64,000 bases of DNA from Candidatus Bathyarchaeia archaeon (lineage in GTDB: Archaea > Thermoproteota > Bathyarchaeia > Bathyarchaeales > Bathycorpusculaceae), in assembly GCA_041447175.1 (NCBI GenBank), contig CP166960.1:1442519-1506518 (forward strand), read 5' to 3'. Position numbers and translations under genes: made by a program. Positions 28,611 through 41,056 of the stretch are shown one piece after another. Position 1 is the stretch's first letter. Each line of letters begins with the position of its first letter. Under the pieces are notes generated by a model. That model was not told the origin of the DNA. It was given only the letters and a program-made list of their open reading frames with translations, and made no database searches.

Positions 28611-31220
28611 TTATTTTTTCCTGACAATCAGGACGGCGACAACAATTATCAGCGCGATTAAGACTACTGAGACTGCGTAGAAGGCTTCTGCAGGGAGACT
28701 GTTTGCGGTGTTAGTTGTGGTTGTTGGTGAAGTTGAAGTCAAATCTACTGCGATGCCTGTTTCACCTGTTGATGCAAAGTACGATTCGGTTCCATCGAAG
28801 CATGCTGTGATTGTGTAGGTGCCTTTTTGGGCGGGGGTCCATGAGACTACGTAGTGACCTGATGTGTCGGTGGTTGTTGTTCCTATTGTTTCGGTGCTTC
28901 CGTCTGGGCCTGTGGCGTAAAGTGTCACTGGTACTCCGCGGGCGTTCTGAGGCATAGGTTGCTGTTCATAGAGGTAAGCCATCCAGTCACTCATGAATTC
29001 GTCAGCTATAGCGGCGGTGCCTGCTGCAGGTATGCCTAAACAGGTTTCTCCTGGCGACTGGTCAGTTACGGTACCTTGGATTGTAACTGCATTTCCTACG
29101 CCAGGTACTGCTGAAACGGTTGTGGCTGATTGCCCTTTACCGAAACAGTAGATTTGGTTGTCGTATCCGTTAAAGCCCACCAAGTAGCCTTCTGCAACTG
29201 CCATACCGGAAGTGAAGAAACCGTCTATGCTCCAGATTTTTTGTCCAGTTTGCGCGTTGATTGCGTAAAGTTCTGCTCCTCTGTAGAGTGGGTCACCGTA
29301 TTGGATGCTCGATGCGGCGAAGACTTTGTTGTCAGCTACAACCATAGCGGACTGCATGAAGGGATATGTTGGGGTGCTTGTTTCGACGCCGCTGGATTGT
29401 GCTTCAAAGTTCCACAGGTTTGTGCCGTCTGTCAAACTAACACAGTGGATGCCGTCCATGCAAAGTTGGTAGATGTTGCCGTAGGCGTTGGTTTCATATT
29501 TCGGCGGGGTTGATGGTTGAGAGCCCCATGCGTTCGGGTAGGCTTTGGATGGCCCCCAGACTTGTTCGCCGGTGTATGCACTGAAACCGCACCACTCCAT
29601 TGAGCCAAGGTGGAACTCACCGTACACTCCGTTGGATATTAAGCCCATTAAGGCGTATGAGGTGGACCCTGCGGGTAGGGTTCGGTTCTGGACCCACATT
29701 TGTTCGCCTGTCTTTGCGTTGTAGCCGATTTCCATCTGCCAGTTCTGCGGTACCTGCATATTCCCTGTGGTTGAAACTATCACTTCAGAACTAACGATAG
29801 AGAGTACTTGACCTGAATAGACTTGGGGAAGGGTTACAGTCCATTCGTATCCGTTTATTGCGTTCACTGTGCGTCCAACTGGAGGCCTCCACATCCAGTA
29901 GAAGGCTTCACCAGTTGACAGGTGATCCAAGTTGTTATTTGGGTACTCTAACGCTTTGCTTGAGTTCCAGAGCGTAAGGGTCTTTTGTGCAGTATTAAGT
30001 GAGTAGACTAGTATAGATCCGTCGTCGCCGTACATTATTGAACCTGAAGGCACGTTTGCTAAGCTGCAGATGTAGTTTCCAGTGAAGGCATCAAGCATTT
30101 GCCAGACGTTGGAGCCTTTTGGCGAAGAGAACGAATACACGGTGCCGTTGCCCATTGTGTACTGGTAGGTTGCAGGTTCCTGTGATACATAGTTCTCCCA
30201 TAGGTACGGAATGGCACCCTGCTGGTTAGGCGAGTAGTAATTGTAGATTTGCCCAAATTTCAATATTGGATACTCCCAAGCTATGTCAGTTCCGCCGATG
30301 TGTGCTGAGGTTTGGCTGCCGATTTGGATTGGCCCCGTGCTGTTTTGCCACCAGAGTGTTTCGCCGGTGCGCAGGTCCACAGCGTAGAAGCCTTCTCGTG
30401 GGGCGGTGGCTTGACCTTCGTTGTAGTAGAGGACGCCGTTCATTATGATTGGCGGCGTGAATGCGCCTTCGTAGAGTTTGCCTGTGTAGTAGTTGGTCAT
30501 GGTGTCGCCGCCGTATTCTCCGCCGATTTGACCGCCGAACATTAGCGGTTTGGTCCAAACAATGTGTGGGGTGTTGGGAGCTTTGGAGTAGGGGTTAAAG
30601 TTGCTTGTTGAGTTATATGTTCCGTAAAGCCAGTTACCAGCGATTTGGTACCAGTCGTGGTTTTGTGCGTTAATTGGTCGTTGCCAGTATCCGTCTGGGA
30701 GGGGAGTTTGAGGTAGGGAGGTTACGGGTTGCTGCTGCACAACTACTGAAACGGTGCTTGAGCTGGGTTCATAGTAGTCGCCAATGAAGGGGCTAGTGCT
30801 GTACAACGAGGGAATTGGCGGAGGGTTAGCATTAACCAGCTTTTGGCCTGCAAAGGTCATTTTAAAGGTGTATGTGCCCACCATGTCGGGAACAAAGGAA
30901 GTGTATGCCCAAGCGGTGGGGTTGGAGGTGAATTCACCTAGGTTTTTGGTTGTTCCAGTTGGGTCGGTGACTTCGACGTTGAATACCCAGTTGTCGCCGT
31001 ATATTCCGTTTGCGGTGGGTGACAAGGGGTTAAGCCAGAAGCTCACGGCTAAGGTTTGACCAATTCCAACGGGGTTTGGTGAGGCAGTGATGTAGGCGTA
31101 GGTTGGGATATTCCAAGCGGGATCGTGTGCGTTGACAGCGGGCAAGACGGTAAGAGTACATAAAGTCAGCAGAAGAGTCAACAGGACAGCTGAAATAAGT
31201 TTATTCTTATTGGGTTTCAT
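28611..31220 (-). CDS. Cell-surface beta-propeller protein with Ig-like domains and C-terminal anchor (cassette 4)
   Basis: 869 residues. Signal peptide (about 8-31, ends NAHDP, as in propeller 2); N-terminal Ig-like domain (about 35-165); propeller (about 175-680) with AVDLRTGETLWW, GYNAKTGEQMWVQN, SAYTGEQVWGP and AINAQTGQKIWSI blades; second Ig-like domain (about 690-825) with the shared IADEFMSDWMAYLY; Thr/Ser linker; transmembrane helix with VRKK tail. It ends 452 bases from the convergent propeller 3. No copy of the conserved 3' element is seen after it; a flippase fragment lies there instead. Confidence 0.9.
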   Translation of the reverse strand: MKPNKNKLISAVLLTLLLTLCTLTVLPAVNAHDPAWNIPTYAYITASPNPVGIGQTLAVSFWLNPLSPTANGIYGDNWVFNVEVTDPTGTTKNLGEFTSNPTAWAYTSFVPDMVGTYTFKMTFAGQKLVNANPPPIPSLYSTSPFIGDYYEPSSSTVSVVVQQQPVTSLPQTPLPDGYWQRPINAQNHDWYQIAGNWLYGTYNSTSNFNPYSKAPNTPHIVWTKPLMFGGQIGGEYGGDTMTNYYTGKLYEGAFTPPIIMNGVLYYNEGQATAPREGFYAVDLRTGETLWWQNSTGPIQIGSQTSAHIGGTDIAWEYPILKFGQIYNYYSPNQQGAIPYLWENYVSQEPATYQYTMGNGTVYSFSSPKGSNVWQMLDAFTGNYICSLANVPSGSIMYGDDGSILVYSLNTAQKTLTLWNSSKALEYPNNNLDHLSTGEAFYWMWRPPVGRTVNAINGYEWTVTLPQVYSGQVLSIVSSEVIVSTTGNMQVPQNWQMEIGYNAKTGEQMWVQNRTLPAGSTSYALMGLISNGVYGEFHLGSMEWCGFSAYTGEQVWGPSKAYPNAWGSQPSTPPKYETNAYGNIYQLCMDGIHCVSLTDGTNLWNFEAQSSGVETSTPTYPFMQSAMVVADNKVFAASSIQYGDPLYRGAELYAINAQTGQKIWSIDGFFTSGMAVAEGYLVGFNGYDNQIYCFGKGQSATTVSAVPGVGNAVTIQGTVTDQSPGETCLGIPAAGTAAIADEFMSDWMAYLYEQQPMPQNARGVPVTLYATGPDGSTETIGTTTTDTSGHYVVSWTPAQKGTYTITACFDGTESYFASTGETGIAVDLTSTSPTTTTNTANSLPAEAFYAVSVVLIALIIVVAVLIVRKK

Positions 31221-32330: not shown

Positions 32331-33410
32331 CTAGGTAAGTTTGTCTAAAAGTATTTTAATTATCCTTTGGCCTGCCGTGCCGTCACCAAACGGGTTAACC
32401 CAAGCCCGCTCTACAGAAAGCATCGCCTTTGAAGCTTCAAGAATACGCTCAGGGTCAGTGCCTGCTAACATGTTTGCCCCCACATCTAAGGTCTCAGGGC
32501 GCTCAGTGTTTTCCCTCAACGTAACACAAGGAACCCTCAGAATGCAAGCCTCCTCCTGAACCCCACCTGAATCAGTCAAAACCAATTTAGCTTTGCTTTC
32601 CAGCTGCAGAAACGCCAAATAATCCAAAGGCTCAACCAACGTAAGCCCACTAACGTCAATGCCAAACAGTTCCAGTTGCTTTTTTGCGCGCGGATGAATC
32701 GGGTAAATAAGAGGAAGCCCAAGCTCCTTTTGCACCAACTGAAGCCCACGAATTAATTGGCTAAAACGGGTTTTGTCATCAACGTTTTCCTGCCGATGTG
32801 AAGTTGCCAAAACGTAGCCGTCAGCTGGGATGCCCAGCTGACTGAGAAGTTGCTTGTGCGATTCGGCTATGTTCATATTTTGAAAAACCGCGTCCACCAC
32901 GGTGTTGCCGACCATGAAAACCCGGTTGCCAGAAATGCCCTCATGCAGAAGAATCCGTTTAGACTTCTCGGTTGGAGCAAACAGAAAATCCGAGCAGTGG
33001 TCAGTCAAAACACGGTTTGTTTCTTCGGGCATACTGCGGTCGTAGCTACGCAAGCCTGCTTCGATGTGCCCAACTTTGATTTTAAGTTTCACGGCGGATA
33101 TTGCACCGGCAAGAACAGTGTTGGTGTCACCTTGAACCAGCACCACATTCGGAGACTCCTTTTGGAGGACTTTTTCGATGCCTATGAGCATTTCGCCAGT
33201 TTGTTTTCCGTTTGAGCTGGAGCCGACATCAAGGTTGTATTTGGCTTGAGGTAGCTTCAGTTGTTCGAAGAAGACATTGTCCATGTTGTATGAATAGTGT
33301 TGACCAGTGTGCAAAATGAAGTAGTTTAGGTTGAGTTTTTGGAATTCGCGGATTAAAGGGGAACACTTCACTATTTCCGGTCGTGTCCCCAAGATGATGG
33401 CAGTTTTCAA
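32331..33410 (-). CDS. wecB: UDP-N-acetylglucosamine 2-epimerase (non-hydrolysing)
   Basis: 359 residues, normal length. GT-B-like epimerase motifs: ILGTRPEIVKCSPLI at the start, HTGQHYS, QGDTNTVLAGA, GHIEAGLRSYDRSMPEE with catalytic residues, TSHRQENVD and LTDSGGVQEEACILRVP. It makes UDP-ManNAc for surface glycans. No UDP-ManNAc dehydrogenase is seen in the window. Confidence 0.95.
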   Translation of the reverse strand: MKTAIILGTRPEIVKCSPLIREFQKLNLNYFILHTGQHYSYNMDNVFFEQLKLPQAKYNLDVGSSSNGKQTGEMLIGIEKVLQKESPNVVLVQGDTNTVLAGAISAVKLKIKVGHIEAGLRSYDRSMPEETNRVLTDHCSDFLFAPTEKSKRILLHEGISGNRVFMVGNTVVDAVFQNMNIAESHKQLLSQLGIPADGYVLATSHRQENVDDKTRFSQLIRGLQLVQKELGLPLIYPIHPRAKKQLELFGIDVSGLTLVEPLDYLAFLQLESKAKLVLTDSGGVQEEACILRVPCVTLRENTERPETLDVGANMLAGTDPERILEASKAMLSVERAWVNPFGDGTAGQRIIKILLDKLT

Positions 33411-33606
33411 GAGTACTAAGTTCCTTAGTTGTTCAGGTGCAATTAACTGGTATTGATTTAAGCCTTAAAACGCTATTGCTACATAGGACTGACTCCACAA
33501 TAGCATAACACAGTTGTCGTAAATTAATTGTTATTGTACCTGTGTGGATATGCAGAAAAATATTTTGCATAAAAAGAAATAGAGTAAATATCTTGTCTCT
33601 TACGGG

Positions 33607-34540
33607 TTAGCTACGTCTGCGTATAAGTAATGCTGCTATAACTGCGACGATTATCACTGAAGCTACGGGCTGCGACTATGTAGGTTGGAACAATTGATTG
33701 ACTTCCAAGGTTCGCAACTGCACTTGGATTTGGTGACGTTGTTACTTGACCTGAAGGCGTAGTTGAAGCTCCGGCTGAAATGCTTGTTTCTGCAACTGAA
33801 CCGCAGTATGACCTGGAGCCACACGAATGAAGCGATGATTGTGTACGAGCCTTGCACTGTAGGCGTCCAAGAGGCTGCGATGTGACCCATTAAGTCGCTT
33901 GTTGTCTGGAAGGTTTGGGTGTTGCCGTTGGACCTGTAACGCAGATTGCTACGGGTACGCCTGTGGCATCAGCGGGGTATTATTTGCTGCTCATAAAGTC
34001 TCCAGCCATTCACTCATGTATACATCGGAGATAGCAGGGGTGTCTTTTGTGCCTGGAACTTGTCTGTCATCGTTCATTGCACAGTTATTGAGTTCCCTAC
34101 ACCGGGGTTGCTGGGTTGCTGTAATCGCTGTTGTCCTTTGCCAAAACAGTAGATTCGGTTGTCGTAGCAGTTGTCTTTTACCATATAACCGTCTACAATA
34201 GCGGAGGGACCGAACCAGCAGTTCATCGTCCAGACAAAGGACACATACAGTTGCGTCGACAGCGTCAATTTTTTGCCTCGGAACAGGGGGCTATTGGGGA
34301 GTGCTCGCTTGTTTTTATATAGCATTTGCCGTCAGCCCATCAAAAGGTCGTATCGGTAGGGGTATTCGCCGCAAGGGTGTTTCTTCTCCTGCGCTTCCTC
34401 CGAAGAAGTGGACTTGCAGGCTACCTGTTTACATGTCACAGCAGTAGAGGTGCCCACCAAAAGTTGCAGCGTAAAGATTTCCGTTGCCCGCGGTCACGGG
34501 TCCACCGTACATGTCGAAAGCGCTGTTGTCTTAGAAAGTT
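33607..34540 (-). pseudogene. Decayed beta-propeller surface protein
   Basis: Pieces of a fifth propeller gene survive in three frames. From 5' to 3' on the minus strand: GGPVTAGNGNLYAATFGGHL, with an in-frame stop at 34429-34431; CYDNRIYCFGKG and PGVGNSITVQ; TPAISDVYMSEW, the family's Ig-domain insert; HIAASWTPTVQGSYTIIASF; a Ser/Thr linker; and a terminal VIIVAVIAALLIRRR membrane anchor with stop at 33607. Frameshifts occur between all of these. The 5' half is missing and no TrmB gene adjoins. It most resembles propeller 4. Confidence 0.8.
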
Positions 34541-34656
34541 GGTCAGGCATTGTTTAGAAGGCAAACCTGGCTTAGTCAGACACTTTGGCGAGAGGTTACC
34601 GGCTTTGGCGCCTAATCCAGTAAGAGCAACAAAAAGGAGGTGTGCTGATGAGGGGG

Positions 34657-37206
34657 TTAAACGATTTTCCTGAGGTATTTGGAGTAATCATAAACGGAAT
34701 TCAGGGGTATTGTATTAAACCAGCTGAATTCAGTATGTTCCGAGTTTAGTTTAATTTCCCCTTCAGCGGAGGTCACCTCAAAAGCCAAAATTATCTTTAT
34801 GCGATCAGGGGTTTCTTCAATCCGCCAGCCAACAATCTTTCCAACTTTCACGTCTAATCCCGTTTCTTCTTTGAACTCCCGCTTCAAAGCGTCTTGAAGA
34901 GATTCGTTTTCTTCCACATGTCCCCCAGCAACATGCCAGTAGCCTTTAAATGGTTCTACGTTGCGCTTCAAAAGCAAAATCTTGCTATCTTTAACGTAAA
35001 TGCCATCAACACAGATAGAAAAAGTTTTTCCAGAGGTATTTATGGCGTTTTCGGTTATGTTTTCGTCCATCAACCTAAGCGTAGCCATCACCTTTTCCAT
35101 CTGGTAGCTGCTTCGATAGTTACCAGCATATGCGACGGGTTTGAATTTGTCCTGTCCAGAACCAGCTTCGCTATTGTCTGCGTCGTCGACGGTTTCGATA
35201 GTTATGTAGCCTTTCTTGAAAGATAAACCAAAAAAGGCAACTATCGCCGTTACAGCTGCCACAGCTATCAGCACCGTCATGGTCGGAAAACTGCTGCTGT
35301 CCGCAGCTGGAGTGGCTGTGGGCTGCTGTGTTTGCAAAGGTAGGGGTGAATTGGAGGTTTGCGGCGTTTGAGAAGCCACAGGAGAAGAGGATAAGCTTGC
35401 TGATGCACTTGGACTTGGCGCAGTAGAAGAGGTTTCTATGGGAACGATGGGGTCTGATATTACGGAGAGGATATGATTTTCTTGCACGTTGGCGAAGTTA
35501 AACGACGTTAAGTTACCTTGATCGACATCATCCGCGTAGACATGGCTAACAAAGCCTGAATCGGAGGTTATGTTGAAAAGTTGAGCCTCACCATAATTGA
35601 CGGAGATGTTTCCAGGCATAATTACGGAATGCTCATCCGTTAGAGCCGTGATGTTGTATGTGTTTATGGCGAAAGATACGTCTATCGTGTGGTTTTTAGT
35701 CACGTTATTGAAGGTGTAGGAGTCGGTGACGTTTTGTGAAGCGTTATCCACAAGCATTTTGTTGACGTGGTAGCCTTCGTTTGCCGTGAAGGTAAAAGTT
35801 TGAAACTGGCCACTGTTAATGACGACAGACCCAGATGGCGTGATGGAGCCATTTCCGCCAGCAGAGGCTGAAATCGTGAAAAGCTTAGTTGAAGACACGT
35901 TAACTATGTGCGGTGCCGTCACATTAGTAAAAGTATAGTTATAAATCTGACCCAGTGAAACACCGTCAATTGAAACATCAAAACGATAGCCTGACGAAAC
36001 GTTAAAGCTGAAAGTTTGACACCCAGAATAATCAAGCGTCATATTTGAGGGCATAACACTTGAGTACACATCTGTCAAAGTCGTTATAGTGTAGGTTTTC
36101 CAATTTAGCTCTGAGATAGAAGAAGAATCAAGCATTAAAGTTGTAGTACAATTATCAGCATTCCAAACACCCGTGGTAAAAGTAGGCTTACCAAGATTTG
36201 TCCACACATTCACTACTGCACTATCGTTAGCTGTAAAAGTTAAACGATCATTTACAAAGAAACTGGTACAGGTAACAAGTGGTGTATTATTTCCAGCCAA
36301 AATGTTACTCATATAAATTAACATCGTATCGCCAGTAACAGAGTTGGTTAAGTTGTAATAGTTCGCATAAGAAACAGGGTCTGGATGCGCATATGGCCCC
36401 ATAAGACAGATCGTAGCGAGATCACTTGATGATAAAACATAGTTGCTGTAAACACATATATTGTCAAGACTACCCGCGAAGTGTTCCCGTCCCTCTTGAT
36501 TTGCCCCAATTCTAAAACTTGCTGAAGAAGAGGAAGGAGTGCCTAACATAAGGTCAGAAGCCACTAGGGTATTATTGAAATACATACTAACAAAGGTATT
36601 TTCTCCAGAAGATTCGCAAGTTAAAGACACCAATGTCCATGAAGCAGGTATCGTAGTGTTTGAGGTCAGCGATCTCCAAGCGTTACCGGTTTGATCTCGG
36701 AATTGAAAAGTAATCTTGGAATTTTGATTACAGAAAAGCTTATAGTTCCAGTCTTTTGTAATTATTTGGCCAGTGCCATTAGTTTTTTCACTTCTATACA
36801 CCCAAGCCATCAAAGTAAACGGAGCAGCCAAACTTAAATCCGCTGACGACCCACAATCAACATAATTTGTTAAACCATCAAAATCCAAAGCTTTACCGTA
36901 TGCTCCATTAACCCATAAGGGCGCAGGTATTGAAAGGGTTCCAGTATTATTATTTCCACTATAATCAGAGGCCGTTGAGCCTGCGCCTTCATTAAAAGAC
37001 CAGAATCCAACCAGATGGTTTTCCGAGGAAACACCTTTTTGGGGAGTTTGGGAAAAAGTCACATCTGAATTAAAAGCCATTACACAATTGTTAAAATCTA
37101 ACAAATACGAGTCTCGACCCGCAACAAGCACACCACTAAACAAGCCTAAAAAGAGCGTAATAGTCAATACACAAATAGAAGCATGTAATAGGGATGAATG
37201 TTCCAC
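34657..37206 (-). CDS. Extracellular LamG and InlB-like repeats fused to a cytoplasmic Nudix hydrolase
   Basis: 849 residues in one uninterrupted frame. Residues 8-30: signal peptide or anchor. 64-262: concanavalin-like LamG domain (LVGFWSFNEGAGSTASDYSG, FAGSLDNICVY). 370-585: three InlB-B-type repeats (YTITTLTDVYSSVMPSN, FTISASAGGNGSITPSG, YNITALTDEHSVIMPGN). 590-640: Ser/Pro/Thr stalk. 641-662: transmembrane helix, followed by FKKG. 727-849: Nudix domain with a perfect signature: G762, E768, R776-E777, E780-E781, G783. The stop-transfer lysines put the Nudix domain in the cytoplasm. It would hydrolyse a nucleoside-diphosphate-linked substrate, possibly regulated by an external ligand. Confidence 0.88.
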   Translation of the reverse strand: MEHSSLLHASICVLTITLFLGLFSGVLVAGRDSYLLDFNNCVMAFNSDVTFSQTPQKGVSSENHLVGFWSFNEGAGSTASDYSGNNNTGTLSIPAPLWVNGAYGKALDFDGLTNYVDCGSSADLSLAAPFTLMAWVYRSEKTNGTGQIITKDWNYKLFCNQNSKITFQFRDQTGNAWRSLTSNTTIPASWTLVSLTCESSGENTFVSMYFNNTLVASDLMLGTPSSSSASFRIGANQEGREHFAGSLDNICVYSNYVLSSSDLATICLMGPYAHPDPVSYANYYNLTNSVTGDTMLIYMSNILAGNNTPLVTCTSFFVNDRLTFTANDSAVVNVWTNLGKPTFTTGVWNADNCTTTLMLDSSSISELNWKTYTITTLTDVYSSVMPSNMTLDYSGCQTFSFNVSSGYRFDVSIDGVSLGQIYNYTFTNVTAPHIVNVSSTKLFTISASAGGNGSITPSGSVVINSGQFQTFTFTANEGYHVNKMLVDNASQNVTDSYTFNNVTKNHTIDVSFAINTYNITALTDEHSVIMPGNISVNYGEAQLFNITSDSGFVSHVYADDVDQGNLTSFNFANVQENHILSVISDPIVPIETSSTAPSPSASASLSSSPVASQTPQTSNSPLPLQTQQPTATPAADSSSFPTMTVLIAVAAVTAIVAFFGLSFKKGYITIETVDDADNSEAGSGQDKFKPVAYAGNYRSSYQMEKVMATLRLMDENITENAINTSGKTFSICVDGIYVKDSKILLLKRNVEPFKGYWHVAGGHVEENESLQDALKREFKEETGLDVKVGKIVGWRIEETPDRIKIILAFEVTSAEGEIKLNSEHTEFSWFNTIPLNSVYDYSKYLRKIV

Positions 37207-37556
37207 TAGAATACCTCATCAAAAAGCGATCGACATAGTTTACGAAGTAAAAAGCAAGACACTGTATAACAAAGCAAGAGAGTTTGATCAACATAGCGGT
37301 CAAAGAACTGGGCAGTAAGCAACAATTGTTTTACGGTTATACTCTTTTCGAAATTAGTCACACTAAGATGAAAAGTGGGCAAAAGTGAAGCAGTGTACCC
37401 TGAAGCTAATAGCACATTTTTAACGTTAAACATGTAGCCACCAACTCTCCTCCAAATTAATAAGCCATTTTTATGTTTTCACCAAGCGATGCATTTAAGA
37501 TTTGCGATATTTGGCCTAAGACTGAACTAACCACAAGAGAAAAGTTGCCCGAAAAA
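37207..37556. other. Intergenic stretch, edge of A/T-rich island
   Basis: 350 bases without a recognised gene. A 75-codon minus-strand frame (37206-37433) has no family features or plausible context. The DNA here becomes more A/T-rich and remains so until about 50.2 kb. Confidence 0.4.
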
Positions 37557-38501
37557 TTATAGAGAGGAAAAAAACGTGACTATCTCGGCACGGTTTGGAA
37601 AAGATCTGGAACCCAAATTTTTAACGCAATATGAAGCATACCAATTCCCTAATTTTGCAAGTTGTTCTATACTAAATTTTTTGGACAAACCGTAAATTAA
37701 TGCAGAAACGAACGCATCACCGGCCCCAGTAGAATCAACGCATTGAACAACATTTGCAGCACACTTGAAGGTTCTCTGTGGCGTCACCATAAGACACCCA
37801 GCTCTACCCAGTCTAAGAGCAACTAAAGGAACTCTGTGACAAACAGTTTTTGCTATCGACGACAAATCAGCTTGATTTGTTAAAGCTTTAGCTTCATCAT
37901 AATTCAAAGTAAGGACATCACAAGAATCAACTAGTTTTTCGAAAGAAGCCCTTTTTTCAGTCACCAAATTATGAGCAGCAATATCAAAAATTATTTTGAC
38001 ATTGAAGGATTTAGCAATATCCACTGCCTTAAATATAGCAGACTCTTGAAGAGCAGTAACTAAAGAATAACCAGTCAGTAGAATACATTTTGCACTTTGT
38101 ATACACAATTTATGTTTTTCTACATCTTCTGGAGATAGGAAGTCATTTGCGCCTCTTGAAACCAAAAAAGACCTTTCACCATCTTCCGCAACAAAAGTTG
38201 TTATTATGCCAGTTGGAATAAACTTATCGAAAATCAATTTAACGTTTACACCCTCACTCAGCAAGTTGTCTTGGTAACAAAAGCCAAAGGTGTCTTTTCC
38301 AGCCTTGCCAATTAATGTAGCCTGCCCGCCCAACCTTTTCAATCCAACAGCTATATTGCCAATACCTCCAGGTTCAATCTTCATCGGGACATAACTCGTT
38401 CCCCCTTTAATCAAACTTAGTTTTAAGGGGTCTTGTCTAATCATGATATCAAAAAAAACATCGCCCAGTACAACGCAGTCAATTTTTTTAGCCTGATTCA
38501 T
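37557..38501 (-). CDS. PfkB-family carbohydrate kinase
   Basis: 314 residues. The ribokinase fold shows VVLGDVFFDIMI at the start, PGGIGNIAVGLKRLGG, LNYDEAKAL and the catalytic, anion-hole DSTGAGDAFVSALIYGL near residue 258. It phosphorylates a sugar or nucleoside with ATP. In this context, upstream of glycosyltransferases and beside a nucleotidyltransferase-like protein, it may activate a sugar for surface glycan synthesis. Substrate unknown. Confidence 0.88.
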   Translation of the reverse strand: MNQAKKIDCVVLGDVFFDIMIRQDPLKLSLIKGGTSYVPMKIEPGGIGNIAVGLKRLGGQATLIGKAGKDTFGFCYQDNLLSEGVNVKLIFDKFIPTGIITTFVAEDGERSFLVSRGANDFLSPEDVEKHKLCIQSAKCILLTGYSLVTALQESAIFKAVDIAKSFNVKIIFDIAAHNLVTEKRASFEKLVDSCDVLTLNYDEAKALTNQADLSSIAKTVCHRVPLVALRLGRAGCLMVTPQRTFKCAANVVQCVDSTGAGDAFVSALIYGLSKKFSIEQLAKLGNWYASYCVKNLGSRSFPNRAEIVTFFSSL

Positions 38502-38573: not shown

Positions 38574-39791
38574 TCACATAACGCCGTAACGGAGAATACT
38601 AGTACCTGCACTAGAAGAAGGTATCGGAAGATTCATCAAATCAAGAAATGTTGGGAACAAATCAACTAAGGCACAATTTTTAGCAACGGTACCGATTTTG
38701 CGTACTTTAGGCCCGGAAATTACAAAGCGAGAATGATTATCTTTAACATCGGGGAGATACCCATGCATGCCCCGCACTTCGGCACCGCCCTGCCAGAAGT
38801 TTGGAAGAATGACATAACCTTCGTTTACAGCCCAAAATATTTGACCATGACTTAAGTTCGTGAAATTGCAGTTTTGTTCTTTTAAATATTGCGTTGATAA
38901 TAGGTGGCCAGACGTTAAATCCGAAAGGATACGTTCGAGTTCATTCTGAACTTGTTCATTTTTCACCCAAAAACGTGCAATTGTTGAATCAAGAAAATAT
39001 ACATAATCATCGTTTAAACGCAAAGATGTTTTTCTCAGAATTTTTTCAATATCGACTGTATAACTCACAGGCACATGTCCATGATCGCCGAATACAACCA
39101 TATTCACTTCATCATATACCTGTAGCAAATGAGAAAAGATTTTTTCGACAGCGATATCGACACCGGTCAGTGCATGTTTGCTTTGTAGAGATGAAGGACC
39201 AAAAGAATGACAAAACCAGTCGACCTCTGCAAAATGAAGCCAAACAAAAGCAGGCTTTTTGACCACCTCTTTTTGAAATTTAGCAACTATTCTATCGGTT
39301 CGTTGATCTGAACCAGGACTCCCTATGAATAACCAGCGTACATTGTTTTTCTCGAATATGTCAAATAACGTTTCAACCTCTGGAAGAAATTGTGGATCCC
39401 AAGGTGGAAGCTTCTCGGCGATATCGAAATTTTTCAATGATGATTGCGGGATGTAGGAAGCAAATCCAGGAAGATGGAACACGTGATTTCCTAAAAAGCC
39501 ACCCAATACCCTCGTAAGTTTGTTGCGCCGTTCTAAAAATGAGAGCAGTTTCATTCGTTTATACGGTGAAGTTTGCGGCGAATATATGTGAAGAAGAAAC
39601 TTGTCCGACTTTTCAGGGTAAAGCCCAGCAAACCAAGTAGGGTGGAGACAGTAACCTAGTGGCGGCACTAGCCGTCCAGTCACCCCTTTTTCAGCCATCT
39701 TTGAGAGAAAAGGCGTATCTTTACCGAGCATATCATATCGAAAGGCATCTATCAATATTGCCACTGTAACTGATTTCGAAGCGCCAGTCAT
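38574..39791 (-). CDS. Alkaline-phosphatase-superfamily enzyme (type I phosphodiesterase-like)
   Basis: 405 residues. Metal-binding residues are visible: Asp in ILIDAFRYDML (residue 15), HFAEVDWFCHSFGP, VVFGDHGHVP and GMHGYLPD. The nucleophile region (PPLGYCLHPTWFAGLYPEKS) fits the type I phosphodiesterase/nucleotide pyrophosphatase branch, with the nucleophile likely the Thr of HPTWF. No signal peptide, so cytoplasmic. It overlaps the next gene upstream by four bases, so both products are probably made together. It could add or remove a phospho-substituent on a surface polymer. Confidence 0.8.
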   Translation of the reverse strand: MTGASKSVTVAILIDAFRYDMLGKDTPFLSKMAEKGVTGRLVPPLGYCLHPTWFAGLYPEKSDKFLLHIYSPQTSPYKRMKLLSFLERRNKLTRVLGGFLGNHVFHLPGFASYIPQSSLKNFDIAEKLPPWDPQFLPEVETLFDIFEKNNVRWLFIGSPGSDQRTDRIVAKFQKEVVKKPAFVWLHFAEVDWFCHSFGPSSLQSKHALTGVDIAVEKIFSHLLQVYDEVNMVVFGDHGHVPVSYTVDIEKILRKTSLRLNDDYVYFLDSTIARFWVKNEQVQNELERILSDLTSGHLLSTQYLKEQNCNFTNLSHGQIFWAVNEGYVILPNFWQGGAEVRGMHGYLPDVKDNHSRFVISGPKVRKIGTVAKNCALVDLFPTFLDLMNLPIPSSSAGTSILRYGVM

Positions 39792-41056
39792 AGTCGTGCC
39801 TCAATAAAACGGGATATTTGTTTTTGAAAAGAAAAACGCAAACTAAATGGATCGAAAGTATTTTTCAAAACATACTGCTTTAGTTGCTCCCAAATATTAA
39901 TCGAAGAACCTTTCCTGAAATTTAGACCAGTATGCGTGTAAAGAACTCGACAAGCAGTATTTAACATATCTTGATTCAAGGTTCCATCACGATTTACAGA
40001 AAAAAGTAGATAAAGACGTGCTGCCAAAAATGCACAAGTTGGTTTCTTGTAAAACATCTTATGATTGGGCCAGCATTTGGTATTATTCCAAAAATTATGC
40101 ACTGTACCGAAATTATAGGTCAATGGATGAGGACATTGTTCAACGAAGCTCAGGATCATATCATCAATATTTGTCGCTTTCATATGATAAAGTCGTTCCA
40201 AAGATACCGCGAAAGAAAGCTCAGCCAAATCTCTTGATCTGAACCACAAATCTACTGCAGCTTGCTCTACTTCGCTGCTAGGCTTGAGTTTATATGAGGC
40301 TGCCTGCTTAACAAACTCAAAAACGGAAGGTTCCAATTCATTATCTGGAAAACGCTTAGCAATTATTTTTTGAAAGGCTTGAAAAGATTCAGTTGGGGAA
40401 ATAGAATATACACTTTCTGAAATTAGTAAGGCGTCAAAAGCCCCAAGGGCAAGTTTCATTGCTTCAAAAGTCAGATGACGTTTCTCGCTATGATGCAGTC
40501 CAAGGGATGTTGAACAAGGCGAAAAAGGAATCAGGGCACCAAAAACTCTATTGAAAAGCAAGCGTAATCCATCCACCACAGGAATATCTTGCGAGTTAAA
40601 CTTAGGAAGTAAGCATTTTATATCGGGACCATAAATGCACTGTGACAACTGAAAATCATAAAGAAATTTTGTCACAGGTAAATCATGTAACTCATGAATG
40701 TTCCAAACGAAGAACTCATACACAGGGTGACCGGACATACTATAAACATTTTTTAGGTTCGTTAACAAAGAAGGATCTAAATTAGGCAAGGACGCCCAAC
40801 CATTTGTAACCACAACAAGATCATAATCGCTTATTAACTCAACGTCAGGACCGTTTACTGCAACAGTACCCTTGGATGATGCATACCCACCGGTTAGGTA
40901 TATACTTACAACGTTCGGCAAGGTCTTGAGCACATATTGACTTAATACCCGAAGATTGTGGCTCAACACAACATTAATCTGAGACACAGTTTTTATGTCA
41001 GTATACCCAGTTGCGGACCAATCGATGTTTTGTTTAAGGATATTCATTATTTCCAT
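39788..41056 (-). CDS. Nucleotidyltransferase-like protein of unknown substrate
   Basis: 422 residues. Residues about 45-90 have a polymerase-beta-type nucleotidyltransferase pattern: VSIYLTGGYASSKG, then ELISDYDLVVV, with the two Asp of a metal site. The remaining ~300 residues are a helical region with no recognisable domain. This is the MNT/KNT superfamily by pattern only. Its partner AlkP-family gene overlaps it by four bases and a PfkB kinase follows. A sugar- or lipid-phosphate nucleotide transfer role is inference. Confidence 0.6.
   Translation of the reverse strand: MEIMNILKQNIDWSATGYTDIKTVSQINVVLSHNLRVLSQYVLKTLPNVVSIYLTGGYASSKGTVAVNGPDVELISDYDLVVVTNGWASLPNLDPSLLTNLKNVYSMSGHPVYEFFVWNIHELHDLPVTKFLYDFQLSQCIYGPDIKCLLPKFNSQDIPVVDGLRLLFNRVFGALIPFSPCSTSLGLHHSEKRHLTFEAMKLALGAFDALLISESVYSISPTESFQAFQKIIAKRFPDNELEPSVFEFVKQAASYKLKPSSEVEQAAVDLWFRSRDLAELSFAVSLERLYHMKATNIDDMILSFVEQCPHPLTYNFGTVHNFWNNTKCWPNHKMFYKKPTCAFLAARLYLLFSVNRDGTLNQDMLNTACRVLYTHTGLNFRKGSSINIWEQLKQYVLKNTFDPFSLRFSFQKQISRFIEARL

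Follow-up and report, generated by a model that had tools for sequence, protein, structure and literature searches.

The stretch of DNA analysed here (the window; 64,000 nucleotides of contig CP166960.1 from Candidatus Bathyarchaeia archaeon) carries a polysaccharide locus with a flippase, a WecB-like epimerase, a PfkB kinase, a phosphodiesterase, and several glycosyltransferases. Among these genes a single frame lies open on the minus strand from a GTG at 37206 to the stop at 34657 (Table 1). The initial annotation, which gave no strand, had placed it in a setting of nucleotide-sugar and glycan genes, which a family scan of the neighbors bears out. All four genomes considered here have a WecB homolog close to the ectodomain gene (71% identical in G002; a fragment, 75% identical, in G021; a 40%-identical type in G022). 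Fragments in several frames at 33411-34656 (minus strand) resemble the intact PQQ-propeller surface protein at 28611-31220 and look like a decayed copy of it, between the fused gene and wecB. A 422-aa protein at 39788-41056 (minus strand), whose gene shares a run with those of a type I phosphodiesterase and a PfkB kinase, has no Pfam match; its N-terminus looks like a nucleotidyltransferase fold (GGYASSKG...SDYDLVVV). The host has been put as a soil or wetland archaeon, with the gene in a sugar-coat cluster.

Table 1 Features of the fused gene, its neighbors, and a second Nudix fusion in the phylum. Positions are those of the window unless a locus is named.
Feature	Residues	Position	Strand	Basis or remark
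Whole fused gene	849 aa	34657..37206	-	GTG start (start codon uncertain); same architecture in G002
Putative signal peptide	1-30	37117..37206	-	Hydropathy peak at residues 4-31; n-region without K/R
LamG (Laminin_G_3) domain	~63-265	36412..37020	-	Pfam PF13385, 6e-17
Conserved middle module (MGPYAHPDPVSY...NVWTNLG..F..GVWN)	269-369	36100..36402	-	Alignment
InlB-like repeat 1	372-439	35890..36093	-	Alignment with homologs
InlB-like repeat 2	442-515	35662..35883	-	Pfam PF18998, 1e-4
InlB-like repeat 3	517-584	35455..35658	-	Alignment with homologs
Ser/Thr/Pro stalk	588-640	35287..35445	-	Composition
Transmembrane helix, then KKGYITIE	641-662	35221..35286	-	Hydropathy 2.57
Cytoplasmic tail and linker (~65 residues; predicted)	663-727	35026..35220	-	Unfused homolog ends about residue 685
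Nudix domain	728-849	34660..35025	-	Pfam PF00293, 5.7e-17; AlphaFold model; Foldseek
Nudix box GX5EX7REUXEEXGU, intact	762-784	34855..34923	-	Residue check
WecB-like UDP-GlcNAc 2-epimerase, conserved neighbor		32331..33410	-	PF02350, 2e-114
PfkB-family sugar kinase, upstream neighbor		37557..38501	-	PF00294, 1.5e-48
UDP-glucose/GDP-mannose dehydrogenase-Nudix fusion		L126:1453-3240 (G297); L127:1751-3520 (G276)		Two genomes, another family of the phylum

The frame encodes, in the order initially annotated, a signal peptide, a LamG domain, three InlB-like repeats, a stalk, a helix, and a Nudix domain; to this list a conserved module at residues 269-369, which had been missed, is added here. The Laminin_G_3 match spans residues 111-262 and lies above the Pfam cut-off, which assigns the domain to the LamG/ConA-like class. 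The middle module matches no Pfam family and is the best-conserved block in the alignment of three Bathyarchaeia (the window genome, G002, and G022); it is extracellular in the predicted topology, with the consensus MGPYxxPDxVSY...NxWTNLGxPxFTxGxWN. The second InlB B-repeat is divergent (residues 444-515; slightly below the curated Pfam cut-off); repeats 1 and 3 were called from the alignment with homologs, not from Pfam. A 75-aa frame at 37206-37433 (minus strand), with GGAGGAG upstream, runs into the fused gene, its TAG and the GTG of that gene overlapping in TAGTG; it is possible that this frame is a leader, or that the start of the fused gene is misplaced.

Hydropathy of the whole protein peaks solely at residues 4-31 and 637-665. 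With an N-terminal signal, a single C-terminal helix, and KK after the helix, the predicted topology is that of a type I membrane protein, and the Nudix side is predicted to face the cytoplasm. The FKKGYITIE tail that follows the helix is kept in G002, G021, and G022. The linker beyond it is poorly conserved in the alignment of the orthologs, and no relative of it was found among the 91 genomes searched; a short MATLRL match in a spacer of G021 was considered as its origin and rejected as too weak (E=0.006 in a small search). A full-length AlphaFold model built with three sequences had a mean pLDDT of 35 and was of no use.

The NUDIX Pfam match covers residues 736-831, and all signature residues of the box are present in the window protein, with G762, E768, R776, E777, E780, and E781 exactly as initially annotated. 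The Nudix part was modeled with 20 archaeal sequences (AlphaFold mean pLDDT 88), and Foldseek returned 541 PDB matches for this model at E<=0.001, the top ones Nudix proteins. In sequence and structure searches, the closest solved structures are E. coli ORF135/NudG (2rrk), BdRppH, and M. mazei MutT; AraR (5bs6) is also among the PDB sequence matches. The MutT/NudG/RppH-like hydrolases (2rrk, 3ees, 3grn) share fold and box with the window domain and are its best matches in both kinds of search, but they are free enzymes, whereas the window domain is tethered to a surface protein. Among the matches listed, all other Nudix frames in the 91 family genomes are of 276 aa or less, and bacterial plasmid Nudix proteins are at most 38% identical; the plasmid matches give no sign of a recent transfer of the domain.

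As to the substrate, NTPs are suggested by the NudG/MutT-like matches no less than nucleotide sugars. Outside its own clade, the best match of the domain in 398 phylum genomes (43% identical) is fused C-terminally to a protein of the UDP-glucose/GDP-mannose dehydrogenase family (G297 and G276; Table 1), next to genes that, named from sequence, are an NDP-sugar epimerase, a nucleotidyltransferase, and a flippase. This protein, possibly an undescribed nucleotide-sugar quality-control fusion, resembles the window protein in its related C-terminal Nudix domain and its nucleotide-sugar/flippase locus and differs in its partner, a nucleotide-sugar enzyme of the cytosol in place of a membrane protein. 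It points to nucleotide sugars as substrate, and does so modestly, since several free Nudix proteins score nearly as high (75 bits vs. 80 bits for the fusion).

The junction of surface protein and enzyme is not an artefact of assembly or frameshift. The genome with the fused gene is a single 2.73-Mb contig in which the frame is intact, and a second species of the genus, assembled separately (G002), has a 1040-aa frame of the same domain order (L060:8930-12052; 42-46% identical), comprising two LamG domains, the middle module, repeats, stalk, helix, KKGYIT tail, and Nudix domain. The same order in two independent assemblies rules out a local assembly error. The initial annotation had advised looking for the order in other archaea and would have given up the fusion if homologs always carried the two parts as separate genes, joined here by such an error; the fused protein of G002 answers both points.

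The fusion was found in two of the order's 163 genomes. Apart from that of G002, no further fusion turned up in protein and profile searches covering the genus, family, order, and class, and a sample of the phylum; two scans of genome contigs revealed only the unfused relative in G022; viral contigs gave chiefly LamG matches and one short Nudix match. The fusion is rare and, judged from this distribution, young. LamG/InlB-type archaeal surface proteins with one C-terminal helix share ectodomain and anchor with the window protein, with orthologs in G022 and G021, but they end about 20 residues past the helix and carry no enzyme domain. In G022 (Candidatus Bathyarchaeota archaeon fen_992; PLNS01000008.1) the ectodomain ortholog, of 607 aa and without Nudix, ends in ...FKKGYITIETVDEENPEGTSDDYTI and a stop about 20 residues past the membrane helix. 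Being a Bathyarchaeota MAG, this relative bears out the assignment to archaea. The ectodomain gene of G021 has the same kind of ending (...KKGYITIEVVEENPEG..DYTI, then a stop); a separate Nudix gene, frameshifted and starting with its own methionine (MFKKEFTVCVDG), is found 1.2 kb downstream in the same orientation, and its readable pieces are 73% identical to the window domain. Beyond it follow an intact free Nudix gene (60% identical) and the remnants of a second helix-tail and of wecB. That second, decayed helix-tail belongs to the same surface family (L058:5702-5854, minus strand; FKKGYITIEPVE, a stop, ENPQETQDDYTI), and a frameshifted Nudix gene lies amid PIN-domain-like genes at L058:11245-11638 (minus strand); as read from its sequence, the G021 locus is rearranging.

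In the Nudix tree, the fused copies group with the free ones in a single clade (support 99/96) that is confined to three of 257 class genomes at E<=1e-20. The endings of the G022 and G021 genes, together with the separate Nudix gene downstream in G021, indicate that a neighboring Nudix gene was probably joined to the surface protein. In the mechanism we propose, a MutT/NudG-like Nudix gene just downstream in the polysaccharide locus became fused, in one genus, to the gene of a Bathyarchaeia type I surface protein, most probably through loss of the latter's stop codon. The fused pair comes together in 14% of the bootstrap trees of the domain, which does not separate one fusion from two; the similar junction position and linker length favor a single event.

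The two fused Nudix domains are 54% identical, with synonymous sites near saturation and pN of about 0.25-0.30, so that the domain has been under selection for most of its history; across the Nudix copies, dN is far under the saturated dS. The box of the G002 fused domain has decayed. This domain reads GLVAENESLKDVLQQQFKDALNL, REFKEE having become QQFKDA, in which R and three E are now Q, Q, D, and A, and four of the six signature residues are lost (R51Q, E52Q, E55D, and E56A in alignment numbering), which is above expectation (hypergeometric P 0.014). At columns that are otherwise fixed it also shows 24 private changes, vs. 5-10 in other copies. Selection on the fused domain may have relaxed recently. 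G002 has in addition a free, intact Nudix copy (67-69% identical), 27 kb from the fused gene and 76 bp after rmlD, directly following rmlA, rmlC, rmlB, and rmlD (gene names read from the sequences, not from a family scan).

One reading of this decay is that loss of a stop codon attached a Nudix domain of little selective value, or none, which is now decaying, the surface protein alone being of importance. The ectodomain orthologs of G022 and G021 manage without a fused Nudix domain, the free Nudix neighbor in G021 is itself a pseudogene, and in a neutral simulation 20-32% of the copies remained stop-free after the number of changes seen in G002; since only two fused orthologs are known, one of them without the catalytic motif, the fusion may be neutral. 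Against this stand the wholly intact box of the window protein, the fused frame retained in two species over the divergence given above, and the well-conserved C-terminal half of the G002 domain, and we regard a domain without benefit as rather unlikely.

A receptor whose LamG ectodomain recognizes a glycan outside the cell and governs Nudix hydrolysis, or the ligand state, inside it would fit the predicted topology, with LamG outside, one helix, and Nudix inside on a single chain. Precedents exist: the Nudix fold is a sensor in NrtR/AraR (PMC4666351), and TRPM2, a membrane protein, has it as a ligand-binding module (PMC6461439). The orthologs without Nudix (G022, G021), however, imply that the surface part does not need the enzyme, and the loss of the signature in the sole other fused ortholog implies that regulated hydrolysis has not been conserved as a function; the tether is long and poorly conserved, and inspection by eye showed no region with a dimerization or coiled-coil signal. 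The proposal of the initial annotation that an external ligand controls hydrolysis is therefore left without support, and we consider such a receptor very doubtful.

Signaling in the opposite direction, in which the cytosolic domain would bind an NDP-sugar or ADP-ribose and modulate how the surface protein is displayed or turned over, and in which catalysis could be dispensed with as in TRPM2, draws on two known systems. Invertebrate TRPM2 has a C-terminal Nudix domain that hydrolyzes ADP-ribose, the vertebrate one is vestigial, and in the channel of the sea anemone hydrolysis is not coupled to gating (PMC6461439); NrtR/AraR use the Nudix fold as a ligand-binding module in which two or three of the box glutamates are replaced, and AraR proteins so altered bind sugar (PMC4666351). 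TRPM2 may offer the closest working parallel: a membrane protein with a C-terminal cytosolic Nudix (NUDT9-homology) domain, the box of which is canonical and active in some lineages and vestigial, with ligand binding alone, in others, much as it is intact in one species here and vestigial in its sister. This is a pattern in two species, read from sequence alone, and a comparison of how the proteins may work, not of membership, for TRPM2 is a tetrameric cation channel with a domain of the ADP-ribose pyrophosphatase type, whereas the window protein is single-pass and MutT/NudG-like, with no homology beyond the Nudix fold. NrtR/AraR resemble the G002 ortholog in the replaced box glutamates, an impairment seen in G002 only, the box of the window protein being intact; they differ in being soluble, with a winged-helix DNA-binding domain. 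The Pfam scan of the fused protein revealed no winged helix-turn-helix, the Nudix domain being itself C-terminal, and the transmembrane core of TRPM channels is absent, there being one C-terminal helix only besides the signal peptide; the protein consequently belongs to neither family. A single-pass surface protein has no known output, and relaxation also explains the loss in G002; such a sensor seems to us improbable. A single-pass "ecto-sensor enzyme" that would couple surface glycan binding to cytosolic nucleotide-sugar hydrolysis in a coat-to-precursor feedback, with the G002 form becoming a pure sensor, is a long shot.

The explanation we favor, with confidence that is evenly poised, is a membrane-tethered nucleotide-sugar or NTP hydrolase at a glycan locus, derived by fusion of neighboring genes and reduced in G002 to binding or structure. 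The product would carry its Nudix domain on a flexible tether of ~65 residues at the inner face of the membrane, and the domain would most likely hydrolyze a nucleotide sugar or NTP where surface glycans are assembled. With its box decayed and the free paralog intact, the tethered domain of G002 would be at most a ligand-binding or structural module. For this explanation, too, TRPM2 is the closest working parallel, and NrtR/AraR show a like reuse of the fold. Read in this manner, the Nudix domain is probably a recent add-on that hydrolyzes or senses a sugar-nucleotide.

The domain order was met nowhere else in the searches of this study, and literature searches revealed no description of a protein with this order. 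The related genomes present what look like stages, from neighboring genes through fusion to loss of the catalytic motif after fusion, and would make this protein a prokaryotic counterpart of TRPM2 that lends itself to study. Should the domain prove active, nucleotide hydrolysis in this uncultured lineage of archaea would take place at the membrane, in a locus for glycan assembly.
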